From: an uncultured Anaerolineae bacterium
GTDB taxonomy: Bacteria > Chloroflexota > Anaerolineae > Promineifilales > Promineifilaceae
Assembly: GCA_905479495.1 (NCBI GenBank)
Contig: CAJQMR010000004.1
Coordinates: forward strand, 62,001 to 126,000
Length of the DNA: 64,000 nucleotides
Reading direction: 5' to 3'
The notes under the pieces were generated by a model that made no database searches, had not been told where the DNA came from, and was given only the letters and a program-made list of their open reading frames with translations. The translations under genes and the position numbers were made by a program. Positions 75 to 22,800 of the stretch are shown here, in pieces; position 1 is the stretch's first letter, and every line of letters begins with the position of its first letter.

Positions 75-127
75 GTAGCCGCGGTTTCTTACCGCGTAAT
101 AATTGCGCGGTAAGAAACCGCGGCTAC
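75..127. repeat. Perfect 22-bp inverted repeat
   Basis: Arms 75-96 and 106-127 are exact inverted copies (left arm begins GTAGCCGCGGTTTCTTACCG) around a 9-base spacer. The right arm contains the stop codon of the peroxiredoxin-like gene, so the hairpin would form at the end of that transcript. An imperfect relative lies at 11515-11568. Confidence 0.9.
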
Positions 128-666
128 GAAAAATGGACGGCGTGCAGCAGTTGGTCGATGGACGGCCGATCGACCGGATCGCGGCTGGGGTGGGCCAGGA
201 GAAGACGGCCGTTTCCCCCAACCACAAAATCCCCGCCCAATTGGTGCGTATCGCCGCGATTGCCCAATGTTTGCCGCCCTTGCAGCCTGGCTTTGGCATA
301 ATAAAGCAAACTCCGAGGACTCCAGGCCCGCAGGGCAGAATGCTTCAGTCCATACGCATGGTAGGCTGCCAATTCCTGATCAATCAAGAAAGGAAAGGGG
401 GATTGGGTTTCTTGCAGCCAAACCTTGGACCAATACGCCGTGCCAAAAGAAATCGTGGCGATTTGCACGTTGGCTGCCTTGAACTGTTCGTGATGGGCCA
501 CAACCTGGGCCACATGATCGCGACAGGGAAGTCAGGCCAGGTGGCGCAGGAAGATGAGCAGGGCAGGACGGCCGTTTCCCCACAAAGATGCGAGGGGCAG
601 GGAACGGCCGTCTAAACTCTTCAATGTGACATCTGGCGCAGGTTGACCAGGGCGTAATTTCAGCAT
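124..666 (-). CDS. Peroxiredoxin-like (AhpC/TSA) protein, candidate selenoprotein
   Basis: The frame opens with ATG at 666 after AAGGA at good spacing and runs to TAG at 126-124, 180 residues, interrupted only by TGA at 534-532. The start reads MLKLRPGQPAPDV, a typical AhpC/TSA opening. Around the TGA it reads FLRHLA-U-LPCRDHVAQ, so the TGA (codon 45) sits where family members carry the peroxidatic Cys of a CxxC motif, and Cys48 would be the resolving partner. The rest is thioredoxin-fold and intact. Family knowledge: PRXL2/SelL-type and other Prx-like proteins are known with UxxC or UxxU. The product would reduce peroxides in the cytoplasm. A SECIS-like hairpin follows the TGA. The alternative is a gene broken by a nonsense mutation or a sequencing error. 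Selenocysteine synthesis genes are not in the window. Confidence 0.75.
493..515 (-). promoter_or_regulatory. SECIS-like hairpin after the in-frame TGA
   Basis: On the minus strand the mRNA can fold AUG-(bulged U)-GGCC, loop CAGGUUGU, GGCCCAU. It has a seven-pair stem with one bulged U and a GGU in the loop, about 27 bases after the UGA. A bulged U and an apical GGU are the SelB contacts known from Escherichia coli fdhF. The fold was found by eye; its stability was not computed. Confidence 0.6.
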
Positions 667-764
667 GTGATTTCCTTAAAAAAGCGGAACGCAGCGTTTC
701 GCAGAGAAGAAGAGAAAAAATCTGCGCCCGCAATTTGCGCCAATCGGCAAAATCTGCGGATGAT

Positions 765-8610: not shown

Positions 8611-9382
8611 TAGCCATTTCCTCTTCCAGCTCCAGCACCTTTTGGTTGGTTAAAAAGAGACTCATCTTTTCTTCAATCTCGGTCCGATTTACACCCCGAT
8701 CCGCCAACATTTCCACGAAAGAATCTATATTGGGGGCAGAAACCGTCCCGCGACAGCCTTCACACCCGTAGCCATAAGCCGGACAAACAGCATCACAACC
8801 CGCCCGGGTAATAGGACCAAGGCAAATCTGGCCGCGCTCGTAAACACAAATGGTTTCATGCAGCTTGCATTCAATGCACATTGGGTAGTCGGGCAGCTTG
8901 GGCTGGCGGCCTTGCAGTAAAACGGTAACAACACGCACAAACTCTTCCCGGTCAATGGGACAGCCAGGAATTACGGCATCTACCTGGATAACCTGGTCGA
9001 TGGCTCGCGCCGGATAAGTTTCGTACCATTCCGCCTTATCACCATAGACGTATTCACGCACATCTTGCAGCGGCTGCCTATTGCGAATGGCATTAATCCC
9101 ACCAAGATGGGCACAGGCTCCCAGGGCAATGACGTAAACGGCCGTTTCCCGTATCCGCCTCAATCTTTCTTCATCACTCGGGCGCGTACACGATCCCTCA
9201 ATAATTGCAATCTGGTAATCCTCGCTGCGCGCACTCGTTGCCTCACGAAATTCAACAATGTTAATCACCTTCAGCAGCTCTGGATGGGTTTGCAGCGCAT
9301 CCAAAACGGTCAGCTGGCATCCTTCACAACTGGTAAAATCAAAAAAGGCCACACGCGGCAGGCCATTTGTCGATGCGTTCAC
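8603..9382 (-). CDS. hydD: NiFe hydrogenase group 3b, delta (small) subunit
   Basis: A 259-residue small subunit with iron-sulfur clusters. C19xxC22 in DFTSCEGCQL starts the proximal cluster ligands; EGSCT, LGACAH and IPGCP follow, and the C-terminal half has two more Cys groups (MCIECKLHETIC and CDAVCPAYGYGCEGC). It passes electrons from the NiFe site to the beta and gamma subunits. The GTG at 9382 follows GGAGG and overlaps the gamma stop as GTGA. Longer frames upstream would run far into the gamma gene. Confidence 0.93.
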   Translation of the reverse strand: MNASTNGLPRVAFFDFTSCEGCQLTVLDALQTHPELLKVINIVEFREATSARSEDYQIAIIEGSCTRPSDEERLRRIRETAVYVIALGACAHLGGINAIRNRQPLQDVREYVYGDKAEWYETYPARAIDQVIQVDAVIPGCPIDREEFVRVVTVLLQGRQPKLPDYPMCIECKLHETICVYERGQICLGPITRAGCDAVCPAYGYGCEGCRGTVSAPNIDSFVEMLADRGVNRTEIEEKMSLFLTNQKVLELEEEMANV

Positions 9383-11514: not shown

Positions 11515-11568
11515 GTAGCCGCAGTTTCTTGCTGTGCTCCAGATGCGCGATAAGAAATCGCGGCTACC
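11515..11568. repeat. Imperfect copy of the 75-127 inverted repeat
   Basis: GTAGCCGCAGTTTCTTGC... and the arm ending in ...TAAGAAATCGCGGCTAC match the first inverted repeat of the window with several changes. It lies between the hydrogenase control region and the end of the M50 gene. Confidence 0.75.
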
Positions 11569-19845: not shown

Positions 19846-22800
19846 ATGGCCGCTTCATCCCAGACCCAGCGCCGACGTTGGCTGCTGATCGGCAGCATTT
19901 TGCTGCTATTTCTTTGCCTGGGCGGTTTGGCTACCCTCATCACCAGCTACCCCATTTTGGGCAGTACGGCCGTTGCCAATCCCCCCATCACCTGGACCAG
20001 CCTACCCAGCCCAACCATTGCCAAATCGGGATTCATCAGCTTTAGTAACGCCCAAAAAATCAATGATTTAGCCCGGCGCGATGGCTTCATTTGGGCCGCC
20101 AGCGACGGTGGACTGCTGGTCTGGCAGGAAAGCGATCTGAGCCAGGTCGTTAAATTCAGCAGCGAGCACGGTTTGGCCGAAAATCAAATCACCAGCGTAG
20201 CGGTAGGGATTGATGGCGCGATTTGGCTGGGCACTGCTTCAGCAGGCGTCAGCCGGTACGATGGCACAAGCTGGCAAACATTTACCGGCGCCGCTGGCCT
20301 GCCCAGCAGCACCGTGCGCGATCTGGTTGTGAGCGCCGACGGGATGGTGTGGGCCGCCACAGATGGCGGCATTGGCCGTTACGACGGCCGTCGCTGGTTT
20401 AGCTACACGCGCGGCCGCACCCTCTTGCAGCTGCCCAGCAACAATGTGAGCAGCCTGACCCTGGCGGCGGATGGGCTAACCATTTATGCAGGTACCACGG
20501 AAGGCGTGGTGCAGTTCAACGGCCGTTCCTGGGACAGTTTAGCACAGGTGGGCAGCCAGGCCGTCAACACCATTCAAGCTGTGGCCGTAACGCCAGACGG
20601 CCGTCTTTGGGCCGCCACCCAGGCCGGGCTCACCCTGTACGATGGCAGCGGCTGGCAACTCTTTACCACCGCCGACGGCCTGGCCAGCGAAGATATACGC
20701 CGCGTGTCTGCCAACGTGGATGGCTCCGTTTGGGTAAGCTACGGCGAACAAGGGTTAGGGCTGACGCAGGTGGAATTGAGCAATGGATTGCCGTTAGTTA
20801 CGGCCGTTTCCCCACCCAACGATCAAATTTTCGCCATCCTGCCTACCGCCAGCGACTTGTGGCTGGGCAGCGCAGCTGGGTTGCTGCGGCGCGACGGTTC
20901 CGGCAGCTGGCAGACCATCGAGCCACCCAGTGAAATCCCTGCCAATCAGATTGCCAATCTGTTGATTGCCGACGGGCAGCCGTGGCTGGGCACGCCCAAA
21001 GGCGTGAGCCGCTTCAACGGCACAAGTTGGGAGACAGTCGATGGGTTACCGGAAACGGCCGTTTCCAGCCTCAACCTGGACAACAACGGTCAGCTCTGGA
21101 CCACTTTTGGCAGCGTGGGCCAGGGCGCAGCCAGCTACGATTTTGCCAACGACAGATGGCAGGCAGTAAGCTGCCCGGTCAGCGGACCCGCCTCGCCCTA
21201 CGTGCGCCATATCGTGCAGACCAGCGATGGCCTGCTCTGGTTTGCCACCGAAGCCGGATTGGCCACGTTTGACACTAAAACACAGCGCTGGAACCTGCTC
21301 ACAACCGATGATGGCCTGCCGGATAACGCCGTCCAGGCGCTGGCGCTGCATCCAGACGGCCGCTTGTGGGTGGGGACAAATGCCGGGTTGGTGGTGTGGC
21401 AAGACGGCCGTTTCATCAGCCTGAACCAGGATGACGTGCGCGAACTGGCCATCGGGCCAGAGGGCACCGTCTGGTTCATCACCGCCGACGCCGTTTACCG
21501 TTGGCGCGATGGCCAAACGCAAAACATCGTGCCGCCACCAGTGAGCCAGGTATTTGATGTGCTGGCCACCGAAACCGGGTTTTGGCTGGCAGCCGCCGAG
21601 GGCGTGGCTTTTTACGATGGCACCCAGGGGGGAAACGGCCGTTGGCAACGCTTTGGTTCCGAAGATGGTCTGCCCGGTGACCGGGTCACAGCCCTGGACG
21701 CAGCCACCGACGGCACCGTTTGGGCCAGCAGCGAACTGCTGCCAGAAGATTCGGCGCTGAGCAGCGGCCTGTACGGCACCTACACCATTCACCACAATTA
21801 TTTGAGCTTTTTTAACGGCCGTTCCTGGCAACCAACCATCCGACCAGCCCCCATTGGCCTGCTCAACCCCGTCATCACCAGCATCACCACCACGCCCGAT
21901 GGGGCCACCTGGCTGGCCAGTTTGGGCGGCATCAGCCGGTTCGATGGCCAACAGTGGACCCAATTCACGATGCTCAACGGCCTGCCCGCGCACGAAGTGT
22001 ACCAGCTGCTCACCGTGGGTAATACGGTTTGGGCCATCACCAAAGGAGGGCTGGCCCAGTTTAACCCCACCACACAAAGCTGGAAATCTTTTGCGGGCGT
22101 GGGAGCGTGGTCCAACTTCGAGGCGGTGCGCCTGGCCGCTGATGCCAGCGGGACGATTTGGGCTGGCAACGGCACGGAACTGCGCCGCTACGATGGGCAA
22201 AGTTGGCAAATCGTGCCCATTGACCTGCCTAACCCAGCGGTTGAGGTGGATGATTTTGTGGTGGAACCAGACGGCCGTTTCTGGTTGGCGGCACATCTGG
22301 AAACCCCTGAGCAAACCCAACAGCTGCTGGCCACATTTGACGGCCAAACCTGGCAATGGCATGAGGTTCAATTACGGTCAGGCGGAGCTTTTTCTCGCTT
22401 ATGGTTGGGGCCAGACGACCGTCTCTGGGCCAGCAACGACACCAGTTTGTGGCACATGGATCTAACCTCGGGAAACGTCAGCCAGCCCAGCCAATACCCG
22501 GAATTGATCCGAGCCATCACCGATGTGACGTTTTTGCCAGATGGGAGGCCCATCGCCGCCACTCGTTTCGAGGCTACGCCGCTACTGCTGGAGCCAAATG
22601 GGGCCACGCCACTGGATGTGCCACTCATCGCCAGCAATGCCTTCGCGGTGCATGTGGCTGGGAACGGCCGTCTCTGGCTGGGCACCAATCAAGGCGCAGC
22701 ACGGCAGCTGGCCGATGGGAGCTGGCAGCAGTTTCCCCTCACTGAGCCAGAAGTCGTCCAAACCGTCACCGAACTAACCGTGGCGCAGGAAGGCAGCTTG

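Follow-up and report, generated by a model that had tools for sequence, protein, structure and literature searches.

A Chloroflexota gene that almost certainly encodes a full-length SelL-related redox protein with selenocysteine at an in-frame UGA

Peroxiredoxin-like (Prx-like) selenoproteins with UxxC or UxxU motifs were described in 2008 as abundant in ocean metagenomes, and the same study names SelL among the families found in both prokaryotes and eukaryotes (PMC2398784). Prx-like UxxC/UxxU selenoproteins are high-confidence predictions in a 2026 review (PMC13188914), and an 'ULPU-containing selenoprotein' named in PMC5029168 was considered as a candidate UxxU form of the SelL-related family. 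Among the papers searched, none was found that had reported the SelL-related subfamily in the Chloroflexota order to which the present locus belongs. The locus lies in a window of 64,000 nucleotides, the whole stretch of DNA analysed, from an uncultured Anaerolineae bacterium. Its product shares with the bacterial Prx-like (thiol:disulfide) UxxC/UxxU selenoproteins the PF00578 domain, the UxxC motif and a bacterial SECIS element behind the UGA, and the UxxU variant of that group is matched by relatives of the window protein in one genus. Because the family already has an NCBIfam name and published Prx-like UxxC/UxxU members, the description of a new selenoprotein in an earlier note on this DNA applies to the gene, as a new and unannotated member, and not to the family.

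The earlier note had described a minus-strand frame broken only by one TGA, and this was confirmed. The frame at 666-124 specifies 180 residues, and the TGA at codon 45, in the context FLRHLA-U-LPC, is its sole interruption (Table 1). As the note had expected of a gene caller, the translation table 11 gene list retains only a 129-residue remnant at 124-513 with a GTG start. Full-length translation into a redox protein, with selenocysteine (Sec) at the UGA, is almost certain. Sequence comparison makes it very highly probable that the product is a SelL-related selenoprotein of 180 residues, in which Sec is predicted to be inserted at codon 45 through SelB and the downstream SECIS. The window gene is probably misannotated.

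Table 1. Coordinates of features at the locus, in positions of the window.
Feature	Positions	Strand	Basis or remark
Predicted SelL-related (Prx-like, AhpC/TSA-fold) selenoprotein CDS	124..666	-	ATG 666-664 to TAG 126-124; Sec45
In-frame UGA, codon 45, U of ULPC	532..534	-	TGA in all orthologs recovered in the order; TGC or TGT in the Cys forms
Cys48, predicted resolving Cys in UxxC	523..525	-	Counterpart of the canonical peroxidatic Cys in peroxiredoxin alignments
Bacterial SECIS hairpin in the CDS: stem with a bulged U at 500 and GGU at the apex (505-503)	493..515	-	Folding and comparison
AAGGA, likely ribosome binding site, 6 bases 5' of the ATG	673..677	-	Sequence
Inverted repeat, two perfectly matching arms of 18 bp, immediately 3' of the stop codon	79..123		Sequence; function predicted

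The read-through protein matched AhpC-TSA (PF00578; 9.7e-18) and AhpC-TSA_2 in Pfam, and the AhpC/TSA fold combined with UxxC is the signature of a Prx-like UxxC selenoprotein. The NCBIfam model NF040769 (SelL_rel_redox) was matched at 147.6 bits over model positions 1-172 of 173, above its curated cut-off of 120 bits, and the window protein has the same RHLxUxxC core as this SelL-related redox protein with no substantial difference from it. Sec and Cys forms of the SelL-related redox protein exist side by side in Chloroflexota. AlphaFold with a 40-sequence alignment gave a confident peroxiredoxin fold (mean pLDDT 94.8), and the best match among solved folds was the C44S/C47S mutant of human prostamide/PGF synthase (PRXL2B/FAM213B; TM 0.75/0.83). 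The cysteines of this enzyme are C44 and C47, so its CxxC spacing corresponds to U45xxC48. The eukaryotic PRXL2 family (PRXL2B/FAM213B, SelL) was also matched by profile (1.4e-15) and shares the fold at about 22% identity to the window protein. The NF040769 and PRXL2B matches support the earlier assignment to the PRXL2/SelL type of UxxC protein. The SECIS of eukaryotic selenoproteins lies in the 3'UTR, whereas the bacterial SECIS of the window protein is inside the coding region. PrxU (TxxU) and the canonical peroxiredoxins have the fold in common with the window protein, which scored 17.8 bits against the PrxU model, far below the cut-off of 270. A plasmid search returned only homologs of about 31% identity, mostly from Thermus.

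Profile alignments with solved peroxiredoxins paired FFPAAFSPVC and its equivalents with FLRHLGClpC, which places the Thr/Ser of the peroxiredoxin PxxxTxxC motif on U45 and the peroxidatic Cys on C48. The canonical motif PxxxT/SxxC with a peroxidatic Cys or Sec is therefore absent from the window protein, where RHLAULPC has Arg for Pro and Sec for Thr; the canonical PxxxTxxC contrasts with RxxxUxxC here, with Cys48 in the peroxidatic place. The earlier note had put the TGA at the peroxidatic Cys, which these alignments contradict; its other placement, on the first Cys of CxxC, holds in the form of UxxC. Residues F39, R41, U/C45, C48 and Q54 were invariant in the 40-row alignment, in which U was entered as C and codons were read from the raw sequence. 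Judged by its sequence, the window protein is a UxxC Prx-like thiol oxidoreductase rather than a canonical Prx whose peroxidatic residue is Sec. Its mechanism would be more like that of a thioredoxin-type UxxC inside a peroxiredoxin fold, with RHLAULPC as the predicted thioredoxin-like active site. UxxC chemistry and the PRXL2 relatives suggest that Sec45 is probably the attacking selenolate, that Cys48 would then capture Sec45 as a Se-S bond, and that thioredoxin or a similar reductant would reset this bond. The candidate substrate is a peroxide or a disulfide.

Orthologs with 48-79% identity were recovered from at least 18 genomes, including the window's own, in a survey of 56 genomes of the order. 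Codon 45 was TGA in every ortholog recovered from the order, down to 48-50% identity, with frames otherwise open, and no Cys ortholog was found among them. The nearest named relative, from an Anaerolineaceae MAG (L021), keeps the TGA, and its similarity also places the host in the Chloroflexota. Three orthologs of one genus (L037, L038, L039) have TGA at codon 48 as well, giving UxxU (AUIPU/AULPU). Both TGA-bearing and uninterrupted copies occur in the wider phylum, and the codon was TGC or TGT in the 6 uninterrupted copies that were read. The resulting homolog set held 39 distinct Sec and 6 Cys (TGC/TGT) forms, and the alignment of the in-frame UGA with the Cys of homologs is that of a bacterial selenoprotein. 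Alignment with Cys homologs had been proposed earlier as a check, and TGC in close relatives with random stops in the gene as grounds for rejection; the relatives in the order keep the TGA and lack random stops.

Folding reproduced the hairpin that had been noted behind the TGA, with its bulged U and apical GGU. The apical loop starts 26 nt behind the TGA and has G in the first two positions; in most bacterial SECIS elements the loop lies 16-37 nt behind the UGA (PMC13188914). The free energy of the window hairpin was unremarkable alone (z = -0.70 versus synonymous recodings), a single-sequence comparison that is too weak to decide, and an Rfam scan of the window gave no match. The case for a SECIS therefore draws its force from comparison, in which the 39 distinct Sec homologs had a hairpin equally far behind the TGA. 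On a fixed-position hairpin score that was devised after the pattern was seen, and over sequences that are related and not independent, Sec forms averaged 16.4 versus 6.1 when their peptides were synonymously recoded, their summed score was 640 versus 320 for the largest of 2000 recodings, and the 6 Cys forms averaged 5.0 versus 4.8 when recoded. Since the score is post hoc, the contrast between Sec and Cys forms outweighs the absolute numbers, and what is added is a clear Sec/Cys comparison in which Sec forms retain the hairpin and Cys forms lack it. The 14 more distantly related homologs had 93.9% of their cells paired and 21 both-side changes, a number reached by 0 of 500 shuffles. Covariation was modest in 16 close orthologs, in which the sequence is nearly fixed (score reached by 19 of 500 shuffles; a slide of +2 scored higher), and several close orthologs, the window included, need the bulged U to pair. 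The comparative evidence suggests that the hairpin recruits SelB, and SelB with Sec-tRNA(UCA) would read the UGA of codon 45 as selenocysteine. A separate scan for other TGA/hairpin pairs in the window raised three candidates, which were dropped for want of homology support.

The codons of the stem and loop are fixed in close orthologs as Val(GTG) in 17 of 17, Gln(CAG) in 17 of 17 and Val(GTT) in 16 of 16, and mean excess codon homozygosity was 0.46 in the stem and loop versus 0.04 downstream. The same fixation could be taken as a sign that translation starts at GTG 513 and yields the 129-residue protein, since this GTG is kept in all 17 close orthologs and the frame is open. Such a product would miss the first strands and the entire UxxC active site, however, and the codons upstream of GTG 513, which have an ATG and a ribosome binding site to themselves, show in-frame conservation. 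GTG 513 belongs to the SECIS stem, which accounts for its fixation in close orthologs, and Sec homologs at greater distance do not retain it. A start at GTG 513 as the source of the product is thus very improbable, and reading the gene as a full-length selenoprotein corrects an annotation error, the cutting of the gene to its C-terminal part, that would recur across the whole Chloroflexota order.

The host assembly (7.28 Mb in a 52-contig bin, 95% complete, 7.4% estimated contamination) contains selA (577 bits), selB (345 bits), selD (377 bits) and a tRNA-Sec with a UCA anticodon. All of selA, selB, selC and selD, which the earlier note had proposed to look for, are therefore in the host genome, as in a selenoprotein-producing bacterium. 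A suppressor tRNA or an altered genetic code that put Trp or Cys at the UGA would agree with the Cys at the codon 45 position of other homologs. This reading has next to no probability against a bona fide tRNA-Sec with selA, selB and selD, a SECIS-like hairpin restricted to TGA forms, and the normal C-terminal stop of several of the same orthologs, which is TGA and shows that TGA can also end translation there. It is of negligible probability that the TGA arose by nonsense mutation, or is a sequencing error, in a Cys-type gene that has decayed, although a fresh pseudogene would also show one in-frame stop. This reading is ruled out by the conservation of the TGA across genera: 18 genomes of the order have it, down to about 50% identity, and neither a Cys ortholog nor any other stop was found among them. 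The sequence on both sides of the TGA is conserved too, with 79% whole-length identity to the nearest relative. The sel machinery, the conserved TGA, the Cys homologs and the conserved SECIS support the reading of the TGA as selenocysteine that had been proposed from the sequence.

Within the order, selA was present in 45 of 56 genomes, so co-occurrence at this level is uninformative. Among 62 phylum genomes with good matches, selA was over its cut-off in 28 of the 30 that bear the TGA, the other two being 77% and 86% complete, and was absent from 9 of the 32 with only uninterrupted copies. The 11 genomes without selA over the cut-off thus comprise 9 with only uninterrupted copies and the 2 incomplete ones, a weakly significant association (Fisher p = 0.04).

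The UxxC-to-UxxU series within one order offers a natural test of the contribution of Sec in SelL/PRXL2-type enzymes. We consider it unlikely, though worth stating, that Sec is fixed order-wide in the SelL-related protein with the UxxU form of one genus acting as a diselenide enzyme, a function not common to the Cys relatives. Three points are mildly notable: Sec is fixed throughout the order, one genus has shifted to UxxU, and the host genome has at least three Prx-like paralogs that contain Sec (C4, C33 and C9). General knowledge of selenocysteine use is unchanged by the window gene.

In two other Prx-like genes of the host a TGA occupies the corresponding place in the active site: FLRHFGUVFC at L084 (G000:C33, about 21160-21670) and FNRGFMUPFC at L085 (G000:C9, about 8900-9200). 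A similar hairpin-forming stretch is located behind each TGA: CTCAGTTGGAG (L084) and GGCGCAGTTGCGTC (L085). The selD gene (L086 1231-2274, G000:C16) has its own in-frame TGA in the N-terminal motif ASCAGUAS, and its product is probably a Sec-containing selenophosphate synthetase.

The inverted repeat behind the stop codon of the window gene is a probable transcription terminator or palindromic element, and its exact sequence occurs once in the genome. Half of it recurs, with two mismatches, at window positions 11546-11563.
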